IMG/VR virus record: IMGVR_UViG_3300045581_000978
Coordinates: 1-64,000 of that record
Strand: one strand, 5' to 3'
Length of the DNA stretch: 64,000 bases
From: a virus
Shown piece after piece: positions 2,344-60,088 of the stretch (the first letter of the stretch is position 1; every line of letters starts with the position of its first letter). The translations under genes and the position numbers were made by a program. Under the pieces are notes generated by a model. It worked only from the letters and a program-made list of their open reading frames with translations. It ran no database searches and was not told the DNA's origin.

Positions 2344-2583
2344 TTACTTCCACTTAACCCTTTTCGAGCTTTTTTTCTTGTACATCTTACCCTTTATTTT
2401 TCTACACTGAGCCTTTGTAGGTCTGCATGCCGGGTAGGAGCCTTTCGAGGTATCTTTTCTACCGCATGGACCTCCGGTTTTACAGTTAATCCATCCTTTA
2501 AACTTTTTACCTTTTTTATCTACATGAGAAGCAAACCACTTATTTAAATTCTCAAGTAAAACTCTCTGCGACATTTGTTCCAT
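2344..2583 (-). CDS. Small basic Cys-containing phage protein, DUF5872-like
   Basis: A 79-aa protein. WINCKTGGPCGRKDTSKGSY near 31-50, then PACRPTKAQC, is a pattern shared by DUF5872-type small phage proteins (four cysteines, many Lys/Arg). The N-terminus (SQRVLLENLNKWF) contains an L-L-E site like the capsid-targeting peptides found in other proteins here, so it may be packaged in the head. Its ATG overlaps the stop of the upstream 2583..2813 gene by one base (TAATG), so the two are translationally coupled. Biochemical role unknown. Confidence 0.65.
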   Translation of the reverse strand: MEQMSQRVLLENLNKWFASHVDKKGKKFKGWINCKTGGPCGRKDTSKGSYPACRPTKAQCRKIKGKMYKKKSSKRVKWK

Positions 2584-3600: not shown

Positions 3601-4253
3601 TTACCCCATGAGGTTCCTGCGAATGGATTGCCCATTCCCTGAGTTACATGTGAGCCTACTCTTGCAGCACCTGGTGAGTGACTACTAGGTTGCTGTACGG
3701 GTTCTGGAGATCCTACAGGTACAACTGCATCGATAGTCTCTTCTTCTGTAGCTAATGGAGCTGTTTTAGTGTTTGCTGCTTGATATAAACCGTAAATAGC
3801 AGAGTTATCTTCATGCTCAAACACTTCTACCTTTTCTACCCAGCATCTTCCATCGCTTTGTGAGTTTATAAATTCTTGCATTTTCTCAAAGCAAAATTTA
3901 GCAATTTTTTCGATACCAGTACCTTCCGGCATAATTCTAAGATCCAAGCCACCTTTTTCATCTAATTCCTTGAATAGTGGTAATAAAGGATCGTCGAAGG
4001 AAAGACATGTAGTATGATCAAACTGATGCTCAAAAAATTCTTTAATTGGCTTTAGACCTCCAAAATCCTGGACCCAGTTTTTATCATCTAAATGATTACA
4101 CCCAAACCAGAATTTAGCTTTTAATCTATAACCATGAAGTTTACTACATCTTTGCGAATTATTACCAGCATCCTTTCTGTTAAAGGCGGCATTTGGTTGT
4201 CTAAATGCGCATGAACCTAAAGTAATTATTTTAGTTGATTGATATGTATACAT
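3597..4253 (-). CDS. queD: 6-carboxytetrahydropterin synthase QueD-like
   Basis: A 218-aa protein of the 6-pyruvoyl/6-carboxytetrahydropterin synthase family, second step from GTP toward preQ0. It has the marine-phage variant N-terminus GSCAFRQ near 13-19, CSKLHGYRLKAKFWFG near 36-51, WVQDFGGLKPIK near 60-71, EHQFDHTT near 76-83, and PEGTGIEKIAKF plus VFEHEDNSAIY in the C-terminal half. The last 50 residues are a Pro/Gly/Ser-rich tail not needed by the family. The first zinc histidine of the classical F-x-A-A-H motif is absent and the metal site looks altered. Promoter identical to that of queE. Convergent with phoH. Confidence 0.88.
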   Translation of the reverse strand: MYTYQSTKIITLGSCAFRQPNAAFNRKDAGNNSQRCSKLHGYRLKAKFWFGCNHLDDKNWVQDFGGLKPIKEFFEHQFDHTTCLSFDDPLLPLFKELDEKGGLDLRIMPEGTGIEKIAKFCFEKMQEFINSQSDGRCWVEKVEVFEHEDNSAIYGLYQAANTKTAPLATEEETIDAVVPVGSPEPVQQPSSHSPGAARVGSHVTQGMGNPFAGTSWGN

Positions 4254-5107: not shown

Positions 5108-5130
5108 GTTTTAATTTAAAATATTAAAAC
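5108..5130. terminator. AT-rich inverted repeat at convergent gene ends
   Basis: GTTTTAAT (5108-5115) and ATTAAAAC (5123-5130) flank a 7-nt loop between the ends of the convergent genes 4308..5099 and 5111..5953. It could act as a weak terminator on either strand, but it is AT-only in the stem apart from one G-C pair. Confidence 0.3.
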
Positions 5131-5953
5131 TTTCTTGTAAGGTTGAAATTTGAGATTTTTTTTCTGAAATTAAAAATTCATTTTTAAGTTCCTGCCTCAA
5201 CTTATCTATATCTGCTTGTGTTAATATGTAGGTATTTAAATCAGAATTGGGTGGTATTATATCTGTAATTATAGTTTTTAAATCCTTTTCACTACCTCTA
5301 GTACCTCTTTTTAGTAGCTTTAACCATGTAGTTGCAGTGTTTCGAGCAGCGGGATTAAAATTTAGCTTTTTATATATATCTGTTAACTTCATTAGAGGTT
5401 CTTCATATCGTTGAGGGCTTATTATTTGACCTTGGCTATCTTTCACCTTCACATCATATTTAAAGGTATTTTTTTCTACTTCAAATACATTGCCATAAAA
5501 AACGCCAGATAATGCAGGTGTAATATCTATTCTCGTAGCGGTAAATGGTATAATATATAGTATGGGGTTTGTAGTATCTTTTTTAGGTAATTTAATATTA
5601 ATTGTATTAACATTAAAGATACGGTTATATTCAGTGTCTAGTTCTTTTTTTAATGCATCGCTAGGAGATTTCGGTATATAATTTAAGAGTTTATCCGGTA
5701 ATGCCATCCCGCCTTTAAATCCTGCTTTTGCGCCGCTGTAAGATGCAGAAAAAAGATCGGAATTAGGATTTAAAAGGTTTTTAGCTACATTACCTACTGC
5801 GCCTAAAGCTGCACCTCCTACTCCTCCCGCTAGTTTAGCGAGACCTTTACCTATATTCTTACCCGTAATTTTTGAGCCAACCGCTCTTCCTATAGTGCGA
5901 ACAGTATCTAGAAATCCTTCCTGTAGTAATTCTTTCTGCGTAAGCTTAGACAT
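5111..5953 (-). CDS. Putative internal head protein with capsid-targeting N-terminus
   Basis: A 280-aa protein without a recognised enzymatic domain. The N-terminus SKLTQKELLQEGFLDT contains an L-Q-E|G site like those cut by the T4 prohead protease gp21, after which the mature protein would begin. Residues 20-60 are rich in Gly, Ala and Lys (GKGLAKLAGGVGGAALGAVG), a possible membrane-active or flexible segment. The C-terminal part is mixed alpha/beta. It lies behind a perfect late promoter and ends head-on against the nuclease gene. Packaging in the virion is an inference from the N-terminus and late expression. Confidence 0.5.
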   Translation of the reverse strand: MSKLTQKELLQEGFLDTVRTIGRAVGSKITGKNIGKGLAKLAGGVGGAALGAVGNVAKNLLNPNSDLFSASYSGAKAGFKGGMALPDKLLNYIPKSPSDALKKELDTEYNRIFNVNTINIKLPKKDTTNPILYIIPFTATRIDITPALSGVFYGNVFEVEKNTFKYDVKVKDSQGQIISPQRYEEPLMKLTDIYKKLNFNPAARNTATTWLKLLKRGTRGSEKDLKTIITDIIPPNSDLNTYILTQADIDKLRQELKNEFLISEKKSQISTLQESFNILN

Positions 5954-5969
5954 ATATTTTATATTTATA
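5954..5969 (-). promoter_or_regulatory. Late-type promoter, perfect TATAAATA
   Basis: TATAAATA on the minus strand (5962-5969), 8 nt before the ATG at 5953. It is divergent from the folE early promoter, whose -35 box begins 2 bp away. Confidence 0.6.
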
Positions 5970-5970
5970 G

Positions 5971-6005
5971 TTGAAAAATGATTTTATTGAGGTTATAATA
6001 ATATT
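5971..6005 (+). promoter_or_regulatory. Early sigma-70-like promoter of folE, leaderless spacing
   Basis: TTGAAA (5971-5976), 17-nt spacer, TATAAT (5994-5999), exactly 6 nt to the ATG at 6006. Transcription is expected to begin on the start codon itself. Confidence 0.8.
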
Positions 6006-6674
6006 ATGGATGATTTTGAAGATAACGAAGTAATGGGCGAAGAGGTTAAGCTACCTAATGCTAATGGTAATGTTCCTCGTTCTGATAAAGAAAAGCATAA
6101 TATCATTAAGAGGGCGGCTAAGGCGTATGAGAGATATCTTGATGCTTTAGGATTTGATTGGAGAAACGATCCTAATTCTTCTAATACGCCTATGCGCGTA
6201 GCTAAGGCTTTTGTTAATGATATTGCATCTGGTTGTTATAATGAACCTCCTGCTGTTACGGCGTTTCCGTCTGACGGCTATGACGGTGTGATTGCTCAAT
6301 GCAATATTCCATTTAAATCACTCTGCTCTCATCATCACCTCGCGTTTACTGGAGTAGCTCACGTTGCGTATATTCCGTCAGTAGAGGGTAAGGTTATTGG
6401 CTTGAGTAAGCTTAATCGTATTGTTGAGTTTTACGCGCGTAGACCTCAAATCCAGGAAGGTGCTACTAAGCAGATTGCTGAAGCTATCGATAAAGTATGT
6501 GAGAAGAATAGAGGGGTTGCTGTTGTTATTAAGGCACAGCATACCTGTGCGTGTCTTCGCGGCGTTAAACATGAAGGATGCTATATGATTACTTCAAAGC
6601 TTACCGGTGATTTCATGGATGATGAAAAGACTCGCACTGAATTCTATAAATTTATCGATATGGCTTCCAAATAG
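6006..6674 (+). CDS. folE: GTP cyclohydrolase I
   Basis: A 222-aa GTP cyclohydrolase I, making 7,8-dihydroneopterin triphosphate from GTP, the entry step to preQ0 (and folate). The zinc and catalytic motifs are intact: [10 protein letters not shown] near 105-114, [17 protein letters not shown] near 132-148, and [13 protein letters not shown] near 180-192. Full family length. In a phage with queD, queE and queC the likely product is a 7-deazaguanine for DNA modification. It has its own strong early promoter, and a second gene follows 24 nt downstream with another -10-like element. Confidence 0.95.
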
Positions 6675-6683
6675 GAACTATAT

Positions 6684-6698
6684 TATAATATAGTTATA
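6684..6698 (+). promoter_or_regulatory. Possible -10 element of 6699 gene
   Basis: TATAAT (6684-6689) stands 9 nt before the ATG at 6699 in a strongly AT-rich gap. The -35 region at about 6661 (TGGCTT) is weak. The gene may also be read through from folE. Confidence 0.4.
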
Positions 6699-7298
6699 AT
6701 GAATATATTTGTAACTGATAAAGATCCCGCGGTAGCGGCACGGGATCTTTGTGATCAACACTGCAGGTCTAAAATGCAAATTGAAGGAGCCATTATGTTG
6801 GCTCATGCTTTTCCGCAAGAGGTTCTAAATCATTCTTCAACTCCTAAGACTAAATCAGGTAAAAGCCGCAAGTCTGGAAAAGGTTATTTTAAGCATCAAT
6901 GCTCTATTTGGGCGCGCGAGTCTAAAGAAAATTTTATATGGCTAGTAAATCATACATTAGAGCAATTTAATGAACGCATGTATAGATGGCCTAATTCAGC
7001 AGAGCATTTTACAAAAGAATTTATTATATGGTGTAGTAAGAATGTTCATAATACTTTGATTGATAAAGTATGTCTTACACCTTTTGTGGTCGCTATTAAT
7101 CAAGATTCTATCTGTAGAAAAGTAATATCAAACTTCGACGACTTATCTGTTATAGAACAGTATAGAGCTTATATTAATTACGATAAAAAATTTGCTACGT
7201 GGACAAAAAGAGAGATTCCTAATTGGTATAATCCACTTCAATCTGATCATCCGCAATATGATTTGACGACACATCAATTAGAGCATCAAGCTGCTTAA
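6699..7298 (+). CDS. Conserved phage protein of unknown function
   Basis: A 199-aa protein that I recognise as a pattern widespread in phages but whose function I cannot name. The N-terminus FVTDKDPAVAARDLCDQHC, the middle HQCSIWARESKENFIWLV and the C-terminal YRAYINYDKKFATWTKR with a final P-x-W-Y are the recurring blocks. A basic insert (KSGKSRKSGKG) lies near 51-61. It follows folE by 24 nt, so a link to deazaguanine metabolism is possible but unproven. Its last 80 nt overlap, in antisense, the 3' end of the minus-strand retropepsin-like gene. Confidence 0.65.
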   Translation: MNIFVTDKDPAVAARDLCDQHCRSKMQIEGAIMLAHAFPQEVLNHSSTPKTKSGKSRKSGKGYFKHQCSIWARESKENFIWLVNHTLEQFNERMYRWPNSAEHFTKEFIIWCSKNVHNTLIDKVCLTPFVVAINQDSICRKVISNFDDLSVIEQYRAYINYDKKFATWTKREIPNWYNPLQSDHPQYDLTTHQLEHQAA

Positions 7299-7659
7299 TA
7301 AAGTCTTTACCTATAAGAACTTTATATTCGTTCTTAGAACGATTACCTATACTAAAGGGTACGTTATCAAACTCTGTATTAGCAAATTTCATTCTAAAAG
7401 AAACCACGGGTCTTTCCTCGACATGACCTGCACCAACGTTAATAGTAATCGTATCTTTAATATCTTTAATTAACCTCTTACCATCAACAGTTGTAAAGGT
7501 TACTTTATTTCCTTGCTTCATAATATCTTCACCATGAAGTACATTAAACGCACCGTTACCAGAGTCTACTTTAGCCTCTAGAGCGCCTATACCTTGTAGC
7601 TCTATTTTTTCAATAAGACCTATTACAGTAGCCTCAAAGAATGTTTTAAAGTTTTTCAT
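7219..7659 (-). CDS. Retropepsin-like aspartic protease (COG4067-like), probable internal head protein
   Basis: A 146-aa protein. ALEAKVDSGNGAF near 27-39 carries the D-S-G motif of retropepsins, and NRSKNEYKVLIGKDFI followed by DALIDVS in the C-terminal part matches the N-R-S-x-Y-x-V-L-I-G-x-x-F pattern of the bacterial COG4067/RimB 'ATP-dependent zinc protease' family. Those are dimeric aspartic proteases. The N-terminus MKNFKTFFEATV resembles a capsid-targeting peptide. I start at the ATG at 7659, one base into the upstream stop (TAATG). An extra 9 residues are possible but have no support. The target is unknown; it could be a packaged protease. Confidence 0.65.
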   Translation of the reverse strand: MKNFKTFFEATVIGLIEKIELQGIGALEAKVDSGNGAFNVLHGEDIMKQGNKVTFTTVDGKRLIKDIKDTITINVGAGHVEERPVVSFRMKFANTEFDNVPFSIGNRSKNEYKVLIGKDFIKQLDALIDVSSNHIADDQIEVDYTN

Positions 7660-8096
7660 TAGTGACAATCGGAACAACCTCCACATTTACATCCTTGAGC
7701 AGCATATTCGCAACCTTCTGCATCCTCATATCCAGAGTTATGCATAGAACTAGTGTTACTGCACGGACAACCTTCATCTCCCCCTTGCTGGCTATATTCT
7801 AACCAGTTATAGGCTGAAGTAATATAATCTGAGGCCTTAGTGATTTTAGATGCTACCCAGCCTTCTAAACCTGGCATACTTTGAACCAACTCTTTTAACT
7901 TAAGAGCTTGATCTGAAATTCTATGAAGTTCGGCTACTGCCATCTCTATCTCGCTACTATCATGATCATCACCATGCTCTATTTCCGCACCTGGCATATC
8001 CATAGTAACGATAACAGGCATACCCTGCGACATATGCATTTCTGTTACTAGTCCATATGCATTAGCTATTCCTAATTGATCCTGTTTTCCGAACAT
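7659..8096 (-). CDS. Conserved virion-type protein with cysteine-rich C-terminus
   Basis: A 145-aa protein. LEGWVASKITKASDYITSAYNWLEY near 79-103 is a module seen at the ends of many T4-like phage head and virion proteins. The C-terminal 35 residues carry eight cysteines (CPC, then C, then CKCGGCSDCH), a likely metal-binding or disulphide cluster. The centre is acidic with several His and Asp. It is coupled to the retropepsin-like gene downstream (TAATG) and follows the NMNAT-like gene by 4 nt. Exact role unknown; packaging is likely from the context. Confidence 0.6.
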   Translation of the reverse strand: MFGKQDQLGIANAYGLVTEMHMSQGMPVIVTMDMPGAEIEHGDDHDSSEIEMAVAELHRISDQALKLKELVQSMPGLEGWVASKITKASDYITSAYNWLEYSQQGGDEGCPCSNTSSMHNSGYEDAEGCEYAAQGCKCGGCSDCH

Positions 8097-8100
8097 AATA

Positions 8101-8703
8101 TTATTTAATACGGCTTCTTATATTTTCGTATGTTTTTTCTTTCAGTTCATCACTAATTAAATCTGACATACCCTGTTTAAATTTATCCAAATCTCCATCA
8201 ACAGCTAACTGTCTTAATTTTGATGCACTCATACCTTCTACCCCCTCTGAATCAGGATCTCTTTCACCTGCTGAAACAAATTCGTAAGTATTGAAGCTGA
8301 AGGGAATAATACCTTTTTTATCAGGCTTACCGTTATATGTTTCTACTACTTTCTCAAACTCAGGAATACGATCGCTACCTGCTACATGGATAATTTTATT
8401 ATATCCTTGTTGTTGCAGGTATTGTAATAAGGAAATAAATGTTTTGCCTTTATCTAATATATTGACACTCTTACTCATTTGTTTAAGAATTTCTTCTTTC
8501 TCACTATATGAAAGAGGATTCTTAACTTTATCTTCCGTGTGAGATGGAGCTATAATAGCATCAGCATTATTTTTAAGAGCTGTTTCACTCACAGTATCTA
8601 TTAGCTTTTGATGACCTATTGTAGGAGGATTGTATCTGCCATAGGCTATTACAGCTACCTTATTGTCAATTTGCTCTAAGAGATACTGCTTAAATGTTTT
8701 CAT
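8101..8703 (-). CDS. Nucleotidyltransferase, NMN adenylyltransferase-like, with capsid-targeting N-terminus
   Basis: A 200-aa HxGH-type nucleotidyltransferase. VIAYGRYNPPTIGHQKLID near 16-34 holds the T-x-G-H nucleotide-binding motif, HVAGSDRIPEFE near 95-106 the family's middle motif, and MSASKLRQLA near 156-165 the I-S-x-S-x-x-R-type motif. Closest familiar families are NMN/FAD adenylyltransferases, which transfer AMP from ATP; the substrate here is an inference. The first ten residues MKTFKQYLLE look like the T4 internal-protein targeting peptide, with L-L-E|Q as a cut site. I use the ATG at 8703, 14 nt inside the upstream gene; an extension to 8814 has no support. Confidence 0.75.
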   Translation of the reverse strand: MKTFKQYLLEQIDNKVAVIAYGRYNPPTIGHQKLIDTVSETALKNNADAIIAPSHTEDKVKNPLSYSEKEEILKQMSKSVNILDKGKTFISLLQYLQQQGYNKIIHVAGSDRIPEFEKVVETYNGKPDKKGIIPFSFNTYEFVSAGERDPDSEGVEGMSASKLRQLAVDGDLDKFKQGMSDLISDELKEKTYENIRSRIK

Positions 8704-9991
8704 TTTGCGGAGGTTGTGATGAGGCTTGTGCAGATCCTGGCTTACCAGTATTAAAGTTAACAGCACTAAATTCCTGTCTATTAACCATTTTTGTAATATC
8801 TGCACCCTGATCATTTACTTTTGAAAGAGCAAATCCCTCTGGTGAGGTTGTCTGCCATACACCGGGTGATTCTTCGAGATAAGTTCCTAATATATCACTC
8901 TTTGTAATATCGTTAAATATTTTTATGAGATTGTTTTTTAAATTTGCTACTGTCTTTGTAATTTCAAAAGCATTTTTAATAGAGCTTTTTAAAGACTTTA
9001 ATTCCGATATCGTTTTTTTAGTCTCTTCTAACTTTTTAGATCTTCCTTTTTCACTTTTAAGACTTTCTAATTCTTTTTGTAATCTAAGAGTCATATAATT
9101 TATAAACTCAGCTGCAGATACAGATGTATCTTCCAGGAATCTACCGGATCTTATCTCTGTGTTTATATAAGTCTTTAATAATGCAGTATAATCATCAAGC
9201 GCGCTAAAGTCAGTTTTCTCAGCAAGACCTAAAACGTACTTTTTCTTCTTCTTAACATCATTTAAGAGAAGTTTACTAAATTTAGATTGACCATTTTTAG
9301 GCTTACTTGCCATTACGTTAAATACAAACACCGTCTTGGAAGGAGAAAATTCTGATGGTGATGAAGTATATTTCTTAACCTTTAAAATACCGTTTTGAAC
9401 TTTATATTCTATATGTATAGCTACTCCTATTTTAGCAGCTAATATATCGCCACCATACGGGCTTTCAGGAGAAACAGCATATTTAATTGTATTAGGTGTG
9501 AAGGTAATAAATCTATTTTCATTCTTAACTCCATCAATTAAAGTAGGTGTTTCAAATTGTTTGAGTCTACTATCAAACATATAATCCATTTGATATATAC
9601 CTTTTAAATTTAAAGAAGGAAGATATCTTAAAGCTAATGTGAGTTTTTCTACTAGACCTGGTGAATTACCATGATTTCTCTTTATGTCCTCTTCTGTATA
9701 GTTAATTTTTGGATTTTTAGCAAACGCTGATTTACTTGCAACAAAAAAGCGATCATTATTATCTAATCCTGCTACTATAGCTGGAGCTCCATCAAATTTC
9801 GTGCTTATGACATAATCTGATTCATCAACGAAATAGGCTATAGAAGATTCGATTTGATTTAATGCCTCTATAACTCCTTGTTTACCTTTATTTAAAATAT
9901 TTTCCTCCAAGTGATCAATATGCTTTACTGCTCCATCGATCGCATCAAAAAATTCTAAAAATAAATTATAATGTTGTTTAAATGTTTTCAT
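8690..9991 (-). CDS. Ligase/nucleotidyltransferase-like phage protein (DUF6267-like) with capsid-targeting N-terminus
   Basis: A 433-aa protein. STKFDGAPAIVAG near 60-72 matches the K-x-D-G-x-x motif I of covalent nucleotidyltransferases (ATP/NAD-dependent ligases), followed by VASKSAFAKNPK near 79-90, GIYQMDYMFD near 131-140 (a motif III-like position) and AVIHIEYKV-like residues near 190. This pattern is the phage DUF6267-type family. Ligase chemistry is an inference. The C-terminal half is coiled-coil-like and Lys-rich. MKTFKQHYNLFLEFF at the N-terminus resembles a head-targeting peptide. It overlaps both the upstream gene (ATGA) and the downstream NMNAT-like gene (14 nt), so the three are one unit. 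Confidence 0.6.
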   Translation of the reverse strand: MKTFKQHYNLFLEFFDAIDGAVKHIDHLEENILNKGKQGVIEALNQIESSIAYFVDESDYVISTKFDGAPAIVAGLDNNDRFFVASKSAFAKNPKINYTEEDIKRNHGNSPGLVEKLTLALRYLPSLNLKGIYQMDYMFDSRLKQFETPTLIDGVKNENRFITFTPNTIKYAVSPESPYGGDILAAKIGVAIHIEYKVQNGILKVKKYTSSPSEFSPSKTVFVFNVMASKPKNGQSKFSKLLLNDVKKKKKYVLGLAEKTDFSALDDYTALLKTYINTEIRSGRFLEDTSVSAAEFINYMTLRLQKELESLKSEKGRSKKLEETKKTISELKSLKSSIKNAFEITKTVANLKNNLIKIFNDITKSDILGTYLEESPGVWQTTSPEGFALSKVNDQGADITKMVNRQEFSAVNFNTGKPGSAQASSQPPQNENI

Positions 9992-11241
9992 ATATTTGAT
10001 AGATTGTCACTCAACTCTTGTTCTGATGAGCTTAGACTTTTAAGATTAATTTTGTTTGCGGTAATTTCTTGATTTGATTTACCCTTTACTAAATTTATTT
10101 GATTAGGTATATCACCGCCAGAAGCGTTTCTTATATCGAAACTATAAACCCCCTTCGTTGTATTTATTATAATAGATATATGCTTTCTTTGATTTTTACT
10201 ATCTTTGTAATAAGGATATTTAACTTCTACTTCTTTTATATCTCCTATAAAATCATAAAGTTTATCTTTATTAGTTAAATCAGCTATTTCTAGGTCGTTT
10301 TTTACGTTTTTTTGCTTAACATATATATAACCGTAATCGAATGCTGACCCCAAAAAGTCAGTAAGCTTATCTATATCGGCCAAATCTGTAGTTTTTATTT
10401 TCTCTTCTTGACCCGGTACTGATGGGGTTTTTGTTATATAATCCTCTAAACCAGCTATAACCCTATCTATATTAACGCCACCAGCTTCTAATAATTTTTT
10501 ACCTATACTGTCACGCTCTCTATTTACAAACTTAACATTATTACTATCAATATCAAACATACCTTTTGCACCTGCATTTGATATGGTCTTACCACCCACA
10601 TTTTTTAAAGATATATAATATGGCTTATCATTAGTATCAATGAGAGTCAAATCAGAAATTTCATCACCTTTTTTAGAAGGACCCTTATCCGTTAAAGGAC
10701 GTCTTACTTGTCTATCAAATCCTCTTCCTTTATCAACATCCTTAAAAGAAACATCTAGAAAATTTTCTAGATTATCAAGTATAGCAGGTTTTTGTTCATC
10801 TTCAGGATTATTAAAATAGTTATTTACACTATTTAAAATATTTCTCTCATACTCCATTCCTTTATTAGAGTGAGCTCCACCACCAAGAGTTATAATAAAC
10901 TCATTATCCGACATATCCCTTACTCTATAAGATTTAAACTTACTCGAAGGAGAACCAGGTTCGCCAGGATTTATAACATCTGTAACAAACAGATTAATTT
11001 CATCTAGCGTGTTAAAGAATTTATTAATAAATTCTTCGTTATCTTTTACCTTTGTTTTAGGCTGGAATCTTATAGCTCCTCTTTTATCAGTACCTACTTT
11101 AAGATCAGGATTTACACTCGTAATAGCTTTCTTTACATCAGCTTTAGTAGTATATTCTCTTACTAAATGACGTGTTAAGCCTATAGGTCCTTTACCACTC
11201 ACTTCTCCAGAATATATTTTTTCTAAGTTCCAACTATGCAT
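9988..11241 (-). CDS. Unknown protein with PD-(D/E)XK-like segment, internal head cluster
   Basis: A 417-aa protein with no firmly recognised domain. GMEYERNILNSVNNYF near 127-142 followed by DEISDLTLIDTNDKPYYISLKN near 193-214 has the order E ... D-x(12)-S-L-K, compatible with a PD-(D/E)XK nuclease fold (S replacing the second acid). That is an inference from pattern only. The N-terminus MHSWNLEKIYSGE is not a clear targeting peptide. It overlaps the next gene by ATGA and the previous by 8 nt, inside the same minus-strand run as the NMNAT-like and ligase-like genes. Confidence 0.5.
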   Translation of the reverse strand: MHSWNLEKIYSGEVSGKGPIGLTRHLVREYTTKADVKKAITSVNPDLKVGTDKRGAIRFQPKTKVKDNEEFINKFFNTLDEINLFVTDVINPGEPGSPSSKFKSYRVRDMSDNEFIITLGGGAHSNKGMEYERNILNSVNNYFNNPEDEQKPAILDNLENFLDVSFKDVDKGRGFDRQVRRPLTDKGPSKKGDEISDLTLIDTNDKPYYISLKNVGGKTISNAGAKGMFDIDSNNVKFVNRERDSIGKKLLEAGGVNIDRVIAGLEDYITKTPSVPGQEEKIKTTDLADIDKLTDFLGSAFDYGYIYVKQKNVKNDLEIADLTNKDKLYDFIGDIKEVEVKYPYYKDSKNQRKHISIIINTTKGVYSFDIRNASGGDIPNQINLVKGKSNQEITANKINLKSLSSSEQELSDNLSNI

Positions 11242-11935
11242 TGCTTAAATTATCTCTTACTTCCTTATCCTCTGTTGATTGTACTAAAAGATTTTGTATT
11301 GCTTCAACTATCTTTTCTGGATCTACATTAGCAAACTCATTAACTACAGGCTTTAATATCATAAGCTCTTCTTCCGTGGGTGTATGCTTTAGAGATTTTA
11401 AAATAAGTTCCTTATAAAGCGGAAAAATTTCCTCTAAAGAAACTTTATTACCCTCACCCTCACTCTGTTCTTTATTAGCTTGTTTTGCTAGTTCAGTATT
11501 CTGATCATTATTATTAGATTGTTGTTCTGTTGCATCAGCTGATTGTTCAGTCAACATAATATATTTTCTCAACAGTGCAATAGTTTTAGATTCAACCTTT
11601 AAACTACTATCAAGAGATATAATATTTTTAACCTCATCAATAACCTTAGATATAGGAATATTAATCATTTTTTTAATTGACTCTATTCTACTATATATAT
11701 ATTTTTGTTTATCCTTATCAAAGACCTTTGGATTAAAAATAAAAGCATTAGTTAGAATCTTAATAACATATTTTTCATTCTCTGATAGATTACTTTCAGG
11801 TGAATTTTCTACAGGTGCAGGGTCTGCAGCAGGTGCTACTTGCGTTTGTGGATCTGCATTAACTACTTCCTCACCTGGTACCTGCTCTTTATACAGACGT
11901 AAATACTTACTCAATAGATTATTGGTTTTTTTCAT
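11234..11935 (-). CDS. Putative internal head protein, acidic
   Basis: A 233-aa protein. The N-terminus MKKTNNLLSKYLRLYKEQ resembles the basic, amphipathic capsid-targeting peptides of its neighbours, with a possible cut after K-E. It is followed by a Pro/Ala-rich acidic linker (residues 20-45), a helical domain near 50-125, a second Gln/Asn-rich linker and another helical domain near 160-230. The two helical domains resemble each other loosely (both read as K-x-L-x-N-x-F-x-x-D and D-K-x-x-x-x-I), suggesting an internal repeat. No catalytic motif. It overlaps the downstream gene by 8 nt. Confidence 0.5.
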   Translation of the reverse strand: MKKTNNLLSKYLRLYKEQVPGEEVVNADPQTQVAPAADPAPVENSPESNLSENEKYVIKILTNAFIFNPKVFDKDKQKYIYSRIESIKKMINIPISKVIDEVKNIISLDSSLKVESKTIALLRKYIMLTEQSADATEQQSNNNDQNTELAKQANKEQSEGEGNKVSLEEIFPLYKELILKSLKHTPTEEELMILKPVVNEFANVDPEKIVEAIQNLLVQSTEDKEVRDNLSNA

Positions 11936-11939
11936 TTAA

Positions 11940-12353
11940 TTATACCCTTGTCATTTGTACAGAAGCTGCGTCTACTTTTTTTCTAAATTGATCAGCTAAT
12001 TTGTCTGCAGCGTCCGCCATTTTTCGCTTTGCACCGCCTAATTTCCGCGCTGTTGGACTTAAAGCTTGTTTAGCTAAGCTTTGATCCGGTATACCTGCAA
12101 TCGCTCCTATAGCTGAAATTACAGTACTGGAATCCTCAGCTTCTTCTTCAGAAGGTTTAGTAACGCTCTTAATTTCAAGCTCAACCGTTCTACCATCTGG
12201 TAATTTTACTAAAAGAATATCTTTAAATACTTTAGCTTCTACTTCAACACCTAATTTAATTAGCATGCGCTGCAATGTTCTTTTTGCATCTATTAAAGAA
12301 TCTAGATCTACATCAGGCGTGTTACCCTCTACAATTTCGAGAAATTTACTCAT
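11940..12353 (-). CDS. Putative prohead core or internal head protein
   Basis: A 137-aa protein beginning MSKFLEIVEGNTPDVD, a short head-targeting-like N-terminus with an I-V-E|G site typical of T4 prohead protease cleavage. Residues 20-60 form a compact alpha/beta unit (RTLQRMLIKLGVEVEAKVF, LPDGRTVELEIKS). The C-terminal 50 residues are helical and Lys/Ala-rich. It has its own late-type promoter and is followed by four genes in tight overlap, so it probably heads the internal-protein operon. Exact role not assigned. Confidence 0.5.
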   Translation of the reverse strand: MSKFLEIVEGNTPDVDLDSLIDAKRTLQRMLIKLGVEVEAKVFKDILLVKLPDGRTVELEIKSVTKPSEEEAEDSSTVISAIGAIAGIPDQSLAKQALSPTARKLGGAKRKMADAADKLADQFRKKVDAASVQMTRV

Positions 12354-12366
12354 GAATATATTTATT
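12354..12366 (-). promoter_or_regulatory. Late-type promoter, AATAAATA
   Basis: AATAAATA on the minus strand (12359-12366), 5 nt before the ATG at 12353. Confidence 0.55.
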
Positions 12367-12784
12367 TAAATAGAGCAAGTTTATTGGATACTTGCTTAAA
12401 GTAAATATCCTTAAGATATTTTAAATCATTCTTTTTTACATATTTCATAAACTTTCGAAAAAAAGCATTACTTTTTTCACTATTAAATATCTCCATAACA
12501 CTAAAAACCTCTTTGATGATGTATAGTTCTTGAAAATCTAATTTAGTTTCATCTATAAAAAATACAGGCTTATTAATCTTGCAGCATTTTTTAAAATTGC
12601 AAATACTAATTATTATATTATTTATTAATAATTTTTTTGTATCCGGATTAGCAATACAATATGGCATATTGTATTTTTGAGTCTCTACAGCTGTTCTTCT
12701 GAACGCGTCTTCAATCGCACTGTTTAAAGATATAGTTCTTTGGCTTTGACACTCTGAGATTAATGATTCCGTTATAATAGTCAT
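12362..12784 (-). CDS. Hypothetical protein
   Basis: A 140-aa Lys/Ile/Phe-rich protein that I do not recognise. From the ATG at 12784 it overlaps the preceding gene (12711..13133) by 74 nt in another frame. A longer version from a TTG at 12808 is possible, and a shorter one from a Met near codon 40 would avoid the overlap. The central part (INNIIISICNFKKCCK and PVFFIDETKLDFQEL) looks globular. No promoter is apparent; it may be co-transcribed with the endonuclease-like gene upstream. Confidence 0.4.
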   Translation of the reverse strand: MTIITESLISECQSQRTISLNSAIEDAFRRTAVETQKYNMPYCIANPDTKKLLINNIIISICNFKKCCKINKPVFFIDETKLDFQELYIIKEVFSVMEIFNSEKSNAFFRKFMKYVKKNDLKYLKDIYFKQVSNKLALFK

Positions 12785-13133
12785 CGCGTAAAAGTACTTC
12801 TTCGTCAAATTGTATTTTAGCTTCTCTATATGCTAGTGCAAATTTAGAATCGCATAGCTCTAATATTTCAAATTTAAAATTTTCTTTACCGTATTTTAAA
12901 ATATCTTCATTTAATTCACGTGATGAGGAGGTATATTCTTTCCAATTTGTTTCAATTACCTCGCAACGCTTATTCTTTTTACCTTTAAGAGGTTTTCTCT
13001 TTAAGATAGATTTACATTGTTTCTTACCGATGTATTTACGGTTATTAGTTAAACATGTTATTTTATATATAAATCCGTAAGGTATATTACCTTCTTCAAT
13101 TATAATATTCGTAGACCAATGACCTAAATCCAT
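12711..13133 (-). CDS. Putative GIY-YIG-like endonuclease
   Basis: A 140-aa protein. YGFIYKITCLTNNRKYIGKKQ near 19-39 is a GIY-YIG-type core (Y-x-I/Y ... Y-I-G-K). EYTSSSRELNEDI then YGKENFKFEILELCDSK then AKIQFDEEVLL follow the usual order for the small T4-like endonuclease family related to Seg proteins. This family is common in T4-like phages and not always mobile. Its start overlaps the upstream stop (TAATG), so it is coupled to the small basic gene 13133..13354. Confidence 0.7.
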   Translation of the reverse strand: MDLGHWSTNIIIEEGNIPYGFIYKITCLTNNRKYIGKKQCKSILKRKPLKGKKNKRCEVIETNWKEYTSSSRELNEDILKYGKENFKFEILELCDSKFALAYREAKIQFDEEVLLRDDYYNGIINLRVSKPKNYIFKQCD

Positions 13134-13354
13134 TATTTTTTATTTATTTTTTTACGCTTTTTACGTTTTTTACGCTTTACTAACCCCGATCGAGAGTAAA
13201 CAGCACTACCTTTAGGTATTCTAGCATCACCTGGTGCATAAAAATCTGAACCAGAAATACTATCAGGCGAAAATCCTCCTGGAGAAGATCCAAGTGCACC
13301 GGCAGCTGTCATACTCTCGTAGAAATATTTTTTAAATGTTACAGTTGATTTCAC
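13133..13354 (-). CDS. Small basic virion-type protein with capsid-targeting N-terminus
   Basis: A 73-aa protein, GTG start. N-terminus MKSTVTFKKYFYESMTAAG is a head-targeting-like peptide with an F-Y-E|S site. The middle GDARIPKGSAVYSRSGLVKR is a conserved block in small T4-like phage proteins. The C-terminal 17 residues are almost entirely Lys and Arg (KRKKRKKRKK), suited to binding DNA inside the head. The late promoter upstream overlaps the uvsY early promoter on the opposite strand. Confidence 0.6.
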   Translation of the reverse strand: MKSTVTFKKYFYESMTAAGALGSSPGGFSPDSISGSDFYAPGDARIPKGSAVYSRSGLVKRKKRKKRKKINKK

Positions 13355-13379: not shown

Positions 13380-13775
13380 GTGGAATTGCTAAAAAGATAT
13401 AAAGAAGAAATCGGAGCTGATTTACTTATTACTGATTTTAATATAAAAGATATACAGTTAAAATTACCTTCTCGTAAGCATTTCTGGGCTGCACGGTTAA
13501 TTGATGCTAAAATTACTCTACAAAATCTTCATAAAAGAAAAAAATCTCTGAAAAAAGATTTAGTTGGTAGAATTATTGCTGAGGCTCCTGTTAAAATTAC
13601 TCAACAAACAGCAGAAGCAGCAGCAGAATCTACAGATGAACTAAGTAATATAAACGATTCTATAAAAGAATATGAATTTATTATTGAATACTTGGAGAAA
13701 GTAGAGAAAATAATGGGTGGAATGGGATATGATATTAAAAATATCATTGAGATACAAAAATTAGAGCAATTATGA
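13380..13775 (+). CDS. uvsY: UvsY-like recombination mediator
   Basis: A 131-aa helical protein, GTG start. It matches T4 UvsY in size (137 aa), in general layout and in the C-terminal block YLEKVEKIMGGMGYDIKNII followed by a short charged tail (T4: a similar A-I-K-x-x-G-F-x-I-K-x-I). UvsY loads the UvsX recombinase onto gp32-coated single-stranded DNA. It is followed directly (ATGA overlap) by uvsW, and uvsX and gp32 are in the same window. The start is supported by the promoter spacing. Confidence 0.8.
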   Translation: MELLKRYKEEIGADLLITDFNIKDIQLKLPSRKHFWAARLIDAKITLQNLHKRKKSLKKDLVGRIIAEAPVKITQQTAEAAAESTDELSNINDSIKEYEFIIEYLEKVEKIMGGMGYDIKNIIEIQKLEQL

Positions 13776-24898: not shown

Positions 24899-25207
24899 TT
24901 AACCTACAGCTACTAAAGCAGTTTGGGTAAAATCAGTTGGTCTATTGAACACATAAACCCCTTTTGGATCAACTGATCCCATACCCAACTCTACAAGATC
25001 TTGTCCCATTGCTATATACTTTGTTTGTAAAGGACGATCTCTTTGTATCCAGTTCTTTACTTTGATATTATCATAGTCAGCATAAAACATTACATCATCT
25101 TCGTAATTTCCATTAAATTCAACAAAATCTGATCCTAAATTATAGTTTTCGTTTAAAGTTAAATTTGCATACAAGCTTTCTAACAAGAACATATCTCTCT
25201 TTTTCAT
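24899..25207 (-). CDS. Hypothetical, possible internal head protein
   Basis: A 102-aa acidic protein of unknown function. I start at the ATG at 25207; a GTG at 25228 would add seven residues. The N-terminus MKKRDMFLLESLYANLTLNEN contains L-L-E|S and L-N-E|N sites like the prohead-protease sites of other internal proteins. The remainder is beta-rich (FVEFNGNYEDDVMFYADYD, KGVYVFNRPTDFTQTALVAVG). It is a lone minus-strand gene among early genes. Confidence 0.5.
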   Translation of the reverse strand: MKKRDMFLLESLYANLTLNENYNLGSDFVEFNGNYEDDVMFYADYDNIKVKNWIQRDRPLQTKYIAMGQDLVELGMGSVDPKGVYVFNRPTDFTQTALVAVG

Positions 25208-25310: not shown

Positions 25311-26096
25311 ATGGAAATGGACAGTAAAAATATGGATTCTGAGGTGAAAGGCTCAAAAAAGTTAGTACTGTCATTTAGTGGAGGTGCTGACTCATCTGTT
25401 CTGTTGTTTATGGCAGCAGATAGAGGATATGAAGAGATTCATACCGTTACTTTCGATTACGGCCAAAGACATCGCCGTGAGATGCAGTGTGTACCTCTCC
25501 AAAAGTGGAATCTGAAAGAGAAATACCCTAACGTTAAATTTACTAATAAAGTACTTGATGTTACATATCTTAAAGACATATCGCCAACCTCATCTCTTAC
25601 GAATTTAGATATTGATAATCCAGATATTAGTCAAATTGCAGGTGATGCGCAACCGGTTTCTTATGTACCGTTTCGTAATCAGATGTTTTTAACGATCTGC
25701 TGTGCATATGCGGAGAGTTTAGGTGCTAGTTCTGTTTGGTATGGAGCAGCTCAGGTAGATTCTTTAGCAGGCTACTGGGATGGATCAACAGAATTCGTTG
25801 ATTCTATAAATAACTTAATACAACTCAACAGAGAACATAGAATTTTTATTGAAGCTCCATTGCTCTCCATGTCGAAAGCAGATATTATACTAGAAGGTAT
25901 AAGACTAGGTGTTAACTTTAGAGATACGTGGACGTGTTATAGCAATCGAAAGGATGAATTAGCAGACGCAACAACACCATCAAGTAGTTTACGCGTTCAA
26001 GGGTTCATTAGCGCTGGATACAGAGATCCTATCAAGTATATTCAGCAAGATAAGCTTGATAGGATATATGAAGAAAATAACTGTATAGAATTATAA
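25311..26096 (+). CDS. queC: 7-cyano-7-deazaguanine synthase QueC, zinc site degenerate
   Basis: A 261-aa member of the QueC family, the ATP-dependent enzyme turning 7-carboxy-7-deazaguanine into its amide (ADG) and then preQ0. The PP-loop SFSGGADSSVLL near 22-33, FDYGQRHRREM near 48-58, YVPFRNQMFL near 114-123 and YGAAQVDSLAGYWDGS near 143-158 are intact. The usual C-terminal zinc motif C-x(n)-C-G-x-C-x-x-C keeps only the first Cys (TCYSNRKDELADATTPSSS); the other three positions read as T/P/S. So structure or end product may differ from ordinary QueC. Complete pathway partners are in this window. Confidence 0.9.
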   Translation: MEMDSKNMDSEVKGSKKLVLSFSGGADSSVLLFMAADRGYEEIHTVTFDYGQRHRREMQCVPLQKWNLKEKYPNVKFTNKVLDVTYLKDISPTSSLTNLDIDNPDISQIAGDAQPVSYVPFRNQMFLTICCAYAESLGASSVWYGAAQVDSLAGYWDGSTEFVDSINNLIQLNREHRIFIEAPLLSMSKADIILEGIRLGVNFRDTWTCYSNRKDELADATTPSSSLRVQGFISAGYRDPIKYIQQDKLDRIYEENNCIEL

Positions 26097-27458
26097 ACCG
26101 TAACGTCTCAATTCATCTAATTGATACGATGTTTTAGGTTTATATCTCTCTTTGAAAGATATACTCTTTTTATCAGACTTAGCTTTATATGAGTCTTTAC
26201 GAGTTTGTTCTACAATATAGGAAGCAGTATAACTTTCAGTTACTGTTTCTTTTTCTGTAAAGCCTCTTTTCTTAGCTATCCCTCTCTCCCAATCCTCTAA
26301 TTCGCCATCGTCATCAAGATCTGCTTTTTTAGCATTGAAAGTTTCATTATCCTCTTCTTTTGGACCATTAAAATAAAGTTTAGCATCCGCAAGTGCATCA
26401 GCTTTATAATCGCTATTATATTGAGGGCTATTAATTATATAATCGATATAATATTCATCTACTTTAGATGCTGGGTTATAACCAGTAGCATGACCACCTG
26501 TTAAGTCGACAGATATCTCACCAGTAGAAGGGTCTCTTCTAGCAGTATAGGTAAGAATACCATCCACCTCTTCACCGTCATCACCTATCCATACAGTTTC
26601 GACTTCACCATCATACTCATCGCCTCGCATTGCTGCATTATAATCCTCCTCACTCACATCCTTACCTGTAAGACTAGGGTCATAGAACTCCTCAGGCCCT
26701 ATTTCTTCATCTTCAGACATCTCACTATCTTCCATTTCTTCATCTTCTGTACCTTGCGAAATAGGCTTAACAGCCGACGATAAATAAGCTGCAATTTTTT
26801 CATAACCAGGTTCGTTAGAGATTTGACCAATAAATGATTTTAATGTAGCAATATCTTTAATTCTATTAGCTACTCCCATTACCTCATTAAGAGCTTCCTC
26901 CTCAATATCGAATCCAGGCTCTCCTAAATTTGAAGCTATTTTTGCAAGTATATTAGCAACAGCTGTTTTGACGAGAATAGTTTCATCAGAAACAATATCC
27001 GTTAACGCGTCGTCCATTTGTTTACCGGACTTAACCTGTCTCATTTGATTTGCAATCTCCTGTGAAGCAGCTTGTGCAGCATATTTTTCTTCCTTACCTC
27101 TATTAACACCTACACCACTAATAAAGTCATCTAGTGTTGAAGAAACTCTTTCAGATATTTCATCAGATTTAGCATTAATTTCTTGCTGTTTCTTTTTTAG
27201 AACATTAAGCATTGCTTGTTTTTTGCCAGTAAATCCAGGAGCTTTTTTAATCATTACAAGTTCTTGATCATCAATAATGTCCAGCATGTAGAGAATCTCT
27301 CTAATAAACTTAATTGTATCAAGAGGTGCGGAGCTCAATCCTCCTGCTCTCATCTTTGATGTTATATTTCCAAATGAAGGATGCGCTCCAGCGTAAGGAG
27401 ACATTTTAGCCTCATTTAAAATACTTACCCTGGCTAGTAGATCTTTGAACGAACTCAT
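26091..27458 (-). CDS. Acidic virion protein with EF-hand loop and capsid-targeting N-terminus
   Basis: A 455-aa protein. N-terminus SSFKDLLARVSILNEAKMS resembles a head-targeting peptide with an L-N-E|A site. A helical region (25-230) is followed by a strongly acidic linker (EDEEMEDSEMSEDEEIGPEE, near 235-255), a small beta domain near 270-330 and, near 380-391, a perfect EF-hand calcium loop DLDDDGELEDWE. The C-terminus is basic. Similar EF-hand/acidic mosaics occur in T4-like internal virion proteins. It has a perfect late promoter and overlaps the end of queC by 6 nt on the opposite strand. Confidence 0.6.
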   Translation of the reverse strand: MSSFKDLLARVSILNEAKMSPYAGAHPSFGNITSKMRAGGLSSAPLDTIKFIREILYMLDIIDDQELVMIKKAPGFTGKKQAMLNVLKKKQQEINAKSDEISERVSSTLDDFISGVGVNRGKEEKYAAQAASQEIANQMRQVKSGKQMDDALTDIVSDETILVKTAVANILAKIASNLGEPGFDIEEEALNEVMGVANRIKDIATLKSFIGQISNEPGYEKIAAYLSSAVKPISQGTEDEEMEDSEMSEDEEIGPEEFYDPSLTGKDVSEEDYNAAMRGDEYDGEVETVWIGDDGEEVDGILTYTARRDPSTGEISVDLTGGHATGYNPASKVDEYYIDYIINSPQYNSDYKADALADAKLYFNGPKEEDNETFNAKKADLDDDGELEDWERGIAKKRGFTEKETVTESYTASYIVEQTRKDSYKAKSDKKSISFKERYKPKTSYQLDELRRYGL

Positions 27459-27828: not shown

Positions 27829-27879
27829 ATGGCTAAACACTATATAGAGAGATCGGAGGTTAATTTATGTGTGCTATAA
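27829..27879 (+). CDS. Possible 16-aa leader peptide
   Basis: A short frame (MAKHYIERSEVNLCVL) begins at the predicted transcription start and ends 13 nt inside the amidotransferase gene. Its path crosses the GGAGG ribosome binding site of that gene (27856-27860), so its translation could affect initiation there. No other support for its being made. Confidence 0.3.
   Translation: MAKHYIERSEVNLCVL
27856..27860 (+). promoter_or_regulatory. Shine-Dalgarno GGAGG of amidotransferase
   Basis: GGAGG, 6 nt before the ATG at 27867. It stands out because most operon-first genes here have no such site. Confidence 0.7.
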
Positions 27880-36853: not shown

Positions 36854-37288
36854 CTATACATATTTGAACGAAGGATTCTCTGTCTGTGAGATATAACCTC
36901 TAAAGGACTCTGTAAGAGCAGCAAGTTCAGTAGCAACACGGGCAATTTTACGCTGCTCTGATTGTTTCATTCTATCAAAAATGGTATCTGGCTCTGCATT
37001 TGCTAGTTTAGTTTGAATAGAGTCGCCACTTGTACCATTTAAGAATTCAAGAAACTGATCACACTGATCAACCCATCCCTGCAACTCTTGCGACATGGCT
37101 TGCGACTGTGCAGTTTTAATTTTCGCAGCTTGTGCCGTTAAATCAGCTGCAGCAGAACCTTCCGGTGAGGCTGTCTGTACATCGAATTCGCTAGGATCAG
37201 TACCCTTATCAAGTGTAGATACCATCGCAGCTCTTTCATCATCCTGCTCATTTAAAATTTTGTAAAATTTACTAGCAAACTTATTCAT
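36854..37288 (-). CDS. Putative internal head protein with capsid-targeting N-terminus
   Basis: A 144-aa Ala/Gln-rich helical protein. MNKFASKFYKILNEQDDE is a head-targeting-like N-terminus with an I-L-N-E|Q prohead protease-like site. The rest (residues 45-140) reads as long amphipathic helices (LTAQAAKIKTAQSQAM, MKQSEQRKIARVATELAAL). No enzymatic motif. A late promoter lies 5 nt upstream, back to back with the CATAAATA of 37322..37648. Confidence 0.55.
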   Translation of the reverse strand: MNKFASKFYKILNEQDDERAAMVSTLDKGTDPSEFDVQTASPEGSAAADLTAQAAKIKTAQSQAMSQELQGWVDQCDQFLEFLNGTSGDSIQTKLANAEPDTIFDRMKQSEQRKIARVATELAALTESFRGYISQTENPSFKYV

Positions 37289-59202: not shown

Positions 59203-59475
59203 TTACCAATTTTTGCAAGAATAGTAACGCGGAGTTCCTGGCTTAGCAGTAGAGCATTTATGTCTTGCTCTAAAAGACTTTCTCTTTTTAGGATTAGATT
59301 TTTTAATACGTAAGTTAGGATCACCGTAATGCACTCGTTTATAACCGGTTTTGGTCTTAACGCATCTCATATATTTTTTATCTGCTCTCGTAGAAGACTG
59401 TTGTTTAGTAGTTTTTGTGCATCTAGCTCCTGCTTTTTCTTCGAGAATTTCTTCAACTAATAGGTTAAATTCCAT
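59203..59475 (-). CDS. Small basic virion-type protein
   Basis: A 90-aa Lys/Arg-rich protein with six cysteines. YKRVHYGDPNLRIKKSNPKK near 48-67, then SFRARHKC near 69-76, is a pattern common to small proteins near gp25 in T4-like phages. The N-terminus MEFNLLVEEILEEKAG contains L-V-E|E sites like prohead-protease targets. Function unknown; likely a packaged or structural protein. TATAAATA lies 5 nt before the ATG. Confidence 0.6.
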   Translation of the reverse strand: MEFNLLVEEILEEKAGARCTKTTKQQSSTRADKKYMRCVKTKTGYKRVHYGDPNLRIKKSNPKKRKSFRARHKCSTAKPGTPRYYSCKNW

Positions 59476-59506: not shown

Positions 59507-60088
59507 ATGACTAAAAAGTATCTAACGCTCGTAGAGGCGTATCTCAGCAGATATCAACGTGGTGGCTTTCTCGTTGGTGATGTTTTTAAATTTAATGATA
59601 ACTTTAAAACTACTGAGCAATATAAGAAACTAGGGCTCAACACTAAAGAGATGATCGATCAGATGATTGAAACTGGTCTCAATGTCCGTGTTGTAGGTAT
59701 TAAAGATACTACTTCTCCTAGATTTCCAGGTAACCCTCAAACTTCATCTAACGATGTTGAGCTCACAATAGCTCTCGACACAGGCGGTGGTAGATATACA
59801 CACTATGTAAATATCTCACCGGAAATGGGTCAACCACTTGATATTTACCCTAATTTACCGCCAATCCCAGATGAAGTTCGTCGTAAGAGCAAAGTTAATA
59901 TTAAGCCAGAGGAGTTAGAGAAGATGGATAATATCTCTAATAAGACAGATAGAGGTACTGGTAGCTATACTGATACAGAAAGATCACTTCCTACTAAAAA
60001 CACAGAAATTCCTTCTATGCCAGCAACTCCATCTATGGAAGTTAACTCATATACTAAGGAGTATATGTCTGAGCTACAGAAGTATTAA
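59507..60088 (+). CDS. Putative virion protein with targeting-like N-terminus
   Basis: A 193-aa protein. MTKKYLTLVEAYLSRYQRGGF at the N-terminus has an L-V-E|A site and a basic patch as in capsid-targeted proteins. The middle (FLVGDVFKFNDNFKTTEQYKKLG near 21-43 and NDVELTIALDTGGGRYTHYV near 84-103) is beta-rich; the C-terminal 60 residues are Pro/Ser/Thr-rich and disordered. Unknown function. Its stop is 3 nt from the recoded clamp-loader remnant on the opposite strand. Confidence 0.5.
   Translation: MTKKYLTLVEAYLSRYQRGGFLVGDVFKFNDNFKTTEQYKKLGLNTKEMIDQMIETGLNVRVVGIKDTTSPRFPGNPQTSSNDVELTIALDTGGGRYTHYVNISPEMGQPLDIYPNLPPIPDEVRRKSKVNIKPEELEKMDNISNKTDRGTGSYTDTERSLPTKNTEIPSMPATPSMEVNSYTKEYMSELQKY

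Follow-up and report, generated by a model that had tools for sequence, protein, structure and literature searches.

T4-like phages are abundant in the sea, and to our knowledge the proteins that phages inject alongside their DNA are mostly unknown beyond a few laboratory models. In T4, the first ten residues of the internal protein IPIII suffice for entry into the head, mutagenesis of this label assigns residues 4 and 7 to targeting and residues 8 and 10 to processing, and the protease gp21 cleaves after (L/I)-x-E (PMC9026906, a review of Lindsay Black's work). Both IPII and IPIII start with MKTYQEFIAE in the T4 genome and gp61.1 starts with MKTFKEFIKE, and sequences resembling this capsid-targeting sequence (CTS) are known on further basic proteins of T-even phages. 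Two T4 proteins, Alt (an Alt/ModA-type ADP-ribosyltransferase) and IPI (anti-restriction), are packaged and act at once in the cell. The head ejection proteins of the giant phages phiKZ and SPN3US are comparable in that a propeptide is removed after Glu by the prohead protease and many proteins are delivered with the DNA, although their propeptides are longer and carry another motif rather than the short T4-type label. Here we examine a 64-kb window (positions 1 to 64,000 of the 66.7-kb virus record IMGVR_UViG_3300045581_000978), a fragment of a marine T4-like bacteriophage with 33% GC, in which a set of proteins begins with short peptides ending in a putative Glu cleavage site. These peptides are very probably capsid-targeting sequences of the T4 internal-protein type, with the proteins behind them bound to the prohead core and trimmed by the head protease.

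Three of the genes concerned lie in what appears to be a single late operon running from 13354 down to 7219, and their products are predicted head cargo (the slash marks the predicted cut):

8101..8703, minus strand: NMNAT/cytidylyltransferase-like enzyme; tag MKTFKQYLLE/Q, predicted cut after residue 10
8690..9991, minus strand: DUF6267 protein; tag MKTFKQHYNLFLE/F; KxDG motif at K65, D67 and G68
7219..7659, minus strand: retropepsin-like protein (RimK-associated "ATP-dependent zinc protease", Zn_protease or RimB type); tag MKNFKTFFE/A

MKTFKQYLLE has aromatic residues at 4 and 7, a hydrophobic residue at 8 and Glu at 10, as in the T4 label; it is the one window tag with this exact fit at the key positions, the others being shifted in spacing or longer. 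Labels in the window measure 9-17 residues, in keeping with the short N-terminal peptide (10-19 residues) of T4 CTSs. The original prediction listed eight such N-termini, and all eight, with their Glu positions, are present on retranslation; two start coordinates needed correction, that of the NMNAT-like gene to 8703 (not 8814) and that of the retropepsin-like gene to 7659 (not 7686). Its assignment of the first gene as an NMN-adenylyltransferase-like enzyme holds at the superfamily level only (PF01467, E 1.6e-5, 25.6 bits, cut-off 21); the protein also matches the cytidyltransferase family phrog_3041 (E 4.5e-48), and PPTIGH ((H/T)xGH-type) and SASKLR motifs can be seen by eye. The retropepsin-like assignment likewise stands, with PF05618 above its cut-off (E 2.7e-7, 31 bits, cut-off 27) and the DSG motif in VDSGNGAF.

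The DUF6267 protein (PF19782, E 3.2e-76) had been described as a KxDG ligase-like protein. KxDG is indeed invariant in 19 orthologs, whereas the resemblance to ligases is structural and non-significant: the AlphaFold model (pLDDT 82, with residues 12-23 predicted to be disordered) matches mainly DNA and RNA ligases in the Protein Data Bank (PDB) by Foldseek, with a best E of 0.34, and a sequence-profile search of the PDB found no relative. The ligase reading is therefore a suggestive lead from a predicted fold, and we do not take DUF6267 as a proven ligase.

To set a chance level, we defined a loose tag as hydrophobic-x-Glu at residues 8-18 with a preceding aromatic and a net charge that is not negative, applied it to 74 curated window genes and permuted the N-terminal 40 residues as a control. 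The loose tag occurs in 16/74 genes against 7.2 +/- 2.5 in shuffled N-termini (P = 0.0015), and a [FY]-type regular expression in 10/74 against 2.8 (P = 0.0005), a modest enrichment of 2-3 fold. Matches are concentrated in minus-strand genes below 38 kb (9/20 vs 7/54; p = 0.005). The UvsY gene (13380..13775, PF11056) keeps a hydrophobic-x-Glu site too, so that this motif alone is not specific, and we rejected it as sufficient evidence for cargo. Because the excess over shuffles is modest, further tests were made outside the window.

Orthologs keep the tag while the sequence behind it diverges. DUF6267 relatives are encoded in 62 viral loci and NMNAT relatives in 56; F4, K5 and E13 of the DUF6267 tag are invariant in the 19 orthologs, down to 29% identity, and DUF6267 proteins of distant phages start with MLDFKSYLIE/S, MINFKAYLTE/A, MKSFKSFIRE/Q and MMKFTQFLAE/S. 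The NMNAT-like tag is kept in ~80% of distinct homologs and the retropepsin-like tag in 86% of distinct orthologs (e.g., MIKFKQYFQE/K, MKKFKEFFIE/K). Among window families, 9/14 on the minus strand and 1/13 on the plus strand (p = 0.003) retain a site in 80% or more of their distinct orthologs, the plus-strand exception being UvsY.

The tag also recurs on proteins that share nothing else. We scanned viral-contig DNA (at least 80 loci) for M-K-T-F-K-[QE]-[FY]-hydrophobic, leaving residues 9 and 10 free, and counted as separate families those with no detectable homology after removal of the first 14 residues. The matches listed comprise 89 genes in 49 unrelated families from 80 loci, with other T4-like genes at 74/80 loci; Glu stands at residue 10 in 76/89 of these genes and 41/49 of these families (binomial p ~1e-39), the 41 families sharing the exact key-residue fit of 8101..8703. 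In a control scan of bacterial and archaeal genomes, Glu-10 occurred in 9/51 matches outside T4-like contigs (Fisher p ~1e-15 against the viral scan) and in 3/3 inside. From the viral scan and its cellular control it follows that unrelated proteins exchange a label whose Glu has a set position, and that they do so specifically in T4-like phages. At least eight unrelated families are tagged in the lineage of the window phage; elsewhere the tagged families include SAM lyase, ADP-ribosyltransferase (ART-PolyVal), GNAT, RimK, lytic transglycosylase, NUDIX and HAD-like proteins. One might instead suppose that the peptides reflect a bias in composition or in helix starts among AT-rich phage proteins, or one ancestral gene start that has been copied, with no targeting involved: K, F and N are common at 33% GC, and T4-like phages duplicate genes. 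Against this stand the recurrence of Glu-10 across unrelated families although the scan left it free, its scarcity in cellular genes that match over residues 1-8, the 2-3 fold fewer matches in shuffled N-termini and the association of the tag with the virion proteome of a relative, cyanophage S-CREM2. We regard this explanation as very improbable; the shuffles, the cellular control and the scan across unrelated families led us to reject chance or composition.

Two of the scanned loci (L267 2357-3910 and L297 6505-9422) each hold four closely spaced unrelated genes starting with MKTFKEYxxE or MKTFKQFxxE, cargo islands that should be useful for mining more head cargo.

In S-CREM2, 52 virion proteins were identified by mass spectrometry (PMC10665884). 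We matched these to its 219 genes and excluded structural proteins from the test. The detected and tagged proteins are a cytidylyltransferase (MKNFSSFLTE/A), a SAM hydrolase (MKDFDSFLEE/F), a kinase (MKRFDAFLTE/E), gp13 (MKDLHSFLTE/Q) and gp136 (MQTFSMFFSE/D). By a tight template of the T4 positions, written after some S-CREM2 N-termini were known, 5/6 tagged non-structural proteins were detected against 23/189 untagged ones (p = 2.4e-4); by the regular expression fixed beforehand the figures are 5/12 and 23/183 (p = 0.017). Pooling with a second cyanophage, S-SZBM1, gives p = 2.4e-5 with the partly post hoc template. NMNAT-like proteins have been reported in virions of S-SCSM1 and S-CBWM1 as well, four cyanophages in all with S-CREM2 and S-SZBM1; the NMNAT-like enzymes of these virions (those of the T4-like S-CREM2, S-SZBM1 and S-SCSM1, and also of S-CBWM1) belong to the same family as that of the window, and those virion enzymes that are tagged bear the same label. 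The authors of the S-CREM2 study considered that such enzymes may simply have co-purified (PMC10665884); that they carry a packaging label favours true packaging. A further S-CREM2 virion protein, gp12 (L235 7704-10313), annotated as a Cas9-like nuclease, carries RFASFMAE/A at residues 18-25, as if packaged.

A different reading of the virion association is that the tags bring core or scaffold helpers to the head, where they are consumed or kept and nothing is injected. In T4 the same protease acts on three components of the core, gp22, gp67 and gp68 (PMC9026906). Small size and basic charge mark several of the tagged proteins, and we found no ejection data for these phages. Such a role sits poorly with folded enzyme families to which scaffolding is foreign (CTP transferase, SAM lyase, ADP-ribosyltransferase, GNAT, RimK, NUDIX and lytic transglycosylase) and with cargo that turns over fast between phages, which is ill suited to scaffolds; we consider it doubtful.

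Several further observations weigh against the capsid-targeting interpretation, besides the late writing of the S-CREM2 template. We found no published proteome for the lineage of the window phage, and S-SZBM1 (30 proteins detected, PMC9146016), too shallow to serve as an independent replicate, yields 1/3 tagged proteins detected, the cytidylyltransferase MRFRQFIIE/A (p = 0.10). Its DUF6267 protein, which is undetected, is untagged, DUF6267 and NMNAT being untagged in some cyanophages (S-PM2 is another case), and the NMNAT tag is degraded in HTVC008M. UvsY, which bears the site, is presumably not packaged. No PF03420 (gp21) or head genes were found in the window's own record, a 66.7-kb fragment; PF03420, the gp21-type prohead protease, is present in 7/10 relatives, including G001, G002 and G006. 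Finally, the strict (L/I)-x-E of the original prediction applies to 5/8 listed sites, and the other three have F at P3 (TFFE, LFLE and YFYE). The major capsid protein sites, with positions inferred from T4, read FLTE/A in T4, LLTE/A in S-CREM2, FLSE/A in phage Melnitz, CLNE/A in G001 and CFRE/A in G002; the last of these suggests that F at P3 may be tolerated in the lineage.

The remaining tagged genes of the window are as follows:

11940..12353, minus strand: protein with tag MSKFLEIVE/G, shared by every one of the 9-10 distinct orthologs, the most distant at ~31% identity
11234..11935, minus strand: protein with tag MKKTNNLLSKYLRLYKE/Q; orthologs MHKTNKIFAKYLNVLEE/Q, MKTLKLIEQYKSLLE/Q and MKTLKLIDRYLHIIE/Q
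9988..11241, minus strand: phrog_8438 protein, possible nuclease or nucleotidyltransferase; degenerate tag NLEKIYSGE
13133..13354, minus strand: 73-aa protein with GTG start, first gene of the apparent operon; tag (M)KSTVTFKKYFYE/S, then a capsid N-arm-like stretch and a KKRKKRKKRKK-type tail; exact TATAAATA 17 bases upstream of GTG
12711..13133, minus strand: GIY-YIG endonuclease-like gene (phrog_447/7363) inside the tagged operon; different-style site MDLGHW...IIIEE/G
5111..5953, minus strand: Gly/Ala-rich protein; tag MSKLTQKELLQE/G; exact TATAAATA 16 bases upstream
26091..27458, minus strand: predicted late protein; tag MSSFKDLLARVSILNE/A; exact TATAAATA 14 bases upstream
36854..37288, minus strand: predicted late protein; tag MNKFASKFYKILNE/Q; orthologs MSLYQKRFKKFLSE/Q (L131) and MSSFTKKFFTLLE/Q (L140)
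59203..59475, minus strand: basic protein, phrog_7595; tag MEFNLLVEEILEE/K; exact TATAAATA 13 bases upstream
2344..2583, minus strand: basic protein; tag MEQMSQRVLLE/N
59507..60088, plus strand: predicted late gene; tag MTKKYLTLVE/A; exact TATAAATA 13 bases upstream

The plus strand carries most of the replication genes (DNA polymerase, UvsX, helicase, clamp and others), the minus strand most of the late genes (tail fibres, baseplate). Minus-strand genes also occur scattered between early genes, and many of them are tagged. The exact T4 late promoter TATAAATA stands 13-17 bases upstream of the tagged genes starting at 5953, 13354, 27458, 59475 and 59507, and ~33 bases upstream of the one starting at 37288, so that six tagged genes or operons would be expressed late, to judge from promoter sequence.

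The original prediction counted at least ten tagged genes. Its eight listed N-termini are all in the sequence, and about six further window genes that it did not list are plausible: 11234..11935 (LYKE/Q), 59203..59475, 59507..60088 (LTLVE/A), 2344..2583 (VLLE/N), 24899..25207 (FLLE/S) and the GIY-YIG gene 12711..13133. Orthologs back several of the tagged genes. The site is kept in 88% of 16 orthologs of 59203..59475 (e.g., MTFDKLYSSLME/A, MNFNELYNSLLE/A) and in 14/14 distinct orthologs of 2344..2583 (e.g., MNFDELYEFYVNE/A, MITFAEFFTE/N), the tag of 13133..13354 is found in 92-94% of distinct orthologs, and the G002 ortholog of 59507..60088 starts with MEKKFIKLFE/S. For 26091..27458 we found no match to Pfam or PHROG. 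The chances seem about even that the list is only partly cargo, with 9988..11241, 12711..13133, 5111..5953 and 24899..25207 being ordinary late or homing genes with chance matches. The hydrophobic-x-Glu motif is short, as the UvsY match illustrates, the window copy of phrog_8438 lacks the site, 5111..5953 has no orthologs among the viral loci compared, and GIY-YIG proteins are typical homing endonucleases. On the other side, the GIY-YIG gene has a hydrophobic-x-Glu site in 90% of its 39-40 orthologs, and phrog_8438 has clear tags elsewhere (MDYNLTKLYE/, MQWSLEKIYE/), including a perfect MKTFKQYFFE/S in a distant member. As to what the phrog_8438 protein does, E132, D197, S211 and K213 are invariant in its family; the invariant E, D and SxK fit a PD-(D/E)XK nuclease, whereas Foldseek, with best matches at E >= 0.018 that are mostly nucleotidyltransferases, leans weakly to a polymerase-beta-type fold.

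DUF6267 and the NMNAT-like protein are encoded in the window by separate, overlapping genes, each with its own label, and are fused into one protein in many relatives (L075, L086, L067, L089, L108, L066, L065 and others). All 15/15 distinct fusions have, 10-14 residues ahead of the second domain, a hydrophobic-x-Glu site that aromatics usually precede (e.g., FGEKFNDLYNKLIAE/DENTETIALYPGG). From its position, the junction site would look like that of a polyprotein cut by the head protease, or like a label left from a recent fusion.

In the protein encoded at 13133-13354, in T4 gp61.1 and in S-CREM2 gp160, the stretch after the predicted cut is similar to the N-arm of the major capsid protein of the same phage, and a polybasic tail follows. 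Compared with all T4 open reading frames, T4 gp61.1 (L241, 18966-19130) matches gp23 best, in the region spanning its cleavage site (score 82; the runner-up scores 50), and the best non-orthologous match of the 13133-type protein of G002 is the major capsid protein (76, next 50); 0/500 shuffles reach either score. S-CREM2 gp160 was detected in virions. We found no clear support for such mimicry in L248, L268, L291 and S-SZBM1_134, in comparisons with distant genomes. These tagged proteins may serve to tie the DNA to the shell.

A link between PF05618 proteins and RimK is established. Phage Melnitz (L188 82-1131) encodes a RimK ATP-grasp protein with the label MTQKFSQFITE/E, and in Mosig EXVC030M (3354-3764, H102) a retropepsin-like match lies within a gene annotated as glutathione synthetase. 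The phages possibly carry a RimK/retropepsin pair acting on ribosomal protein S6.

Taken as capsid-targeting sequences, the peptides suggest the following course of events. Late in infection, tagged proteins would be made from T4-type late promoters with a 9-17 residue N-terminal label, whose two aromatics would bind the prohead core, so that the protein is trapped in the assembling head. A gp21 homologue, a serine protease, would then cut after Glu and free the mature protein among the DNA, and the tagged cargo of the window phage would in this way be packaged. By analogy with T4 IPI and Alt, cargo that probably includes the NMNAT-like, DUF6267 KxDG and retropepsin-like proteins may be delivered to the cell along with the genome, to act ahead of any phage gene expression.

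Compared with IPI, IPII, IPIII and Alt, the system has in common two aromatics (4 and 7), then a hydrophobic residue and a Glu (8 and 10), together with late promoters, cargo of unrelated kinds behind one label and gp21 in relatives. It differs in that the window cargo is other and richer in likely enzymes, in that P3 may be F, Y, V or M besides L or I, in labels of up to 17 residues and in fused cargo with a junction site. Tagged ART-PolyVal and SAM lyase proteins suggest the roles of Alt and IPI, although the enzymes of the window belong to other families. The original prediction's core claim, of T4 internal-protein-like targeting peptides with a Glu cut site and enzymes as cargo, is supported by the unrelated-family scan, ortholog conservation and the S-CREM2 proteome. 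In a literature search mostly without subscription papers, we found no paper tying a capsid-targeting label to enzymes of marine T4-like phages or cyanophages, capsid targeting and cyanophages being mentioned together in a single review, and no mention of DUF6267. The label itself is known from T4; its use on these enzymes looks new.

Elsewhere in the window, genes of the 7-deazaguanine pathway lie at 784-1554, 3597-4253, 6006-6674, 25311-26096 and 27867-28547 (QueC, PF06508; PTPS/QueD-like, PF01242; GTP cyclohydrolase I, PF01227; a QueE-like radical-SAM candidate; and a glutamine amidotransferase), a set that points to possible DNA base modification. A SET-domain protein (PF00856, E 3e-11), here carried by a phage, is encoded at positions 1-405.

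We lean towards the wider proposal that a single packaging label, transferable between proteins, is common to marine and freshwater T4-like phages and serves to fill their heads with an open-ended and rapidly changing set of enzymes (NMNAT-like, KxDG/DUF6267, RimK and its retropepsin partner, SAM lyase, ADP-ribosyltransferase, GNAT, NUDIX and even a Cas9-like nuclease), some of them as fusions cut by the head protease. If this is true, a ten-residue pattern would predict head cargo across T4-like phages, and head cargo and candidate injected proteins could be read from the genomes of uncultured phages. It would also decide between packaged protein and contaminant for the enzymes that recur in cyanophage virion preparations, and would offer natural labels for loading proteins into phage heads. 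DUF6267, the NMNAT-like enzyme, RimK/retropepsin and other tagged proteins would then be candidates for early host take-over or counter-defence.

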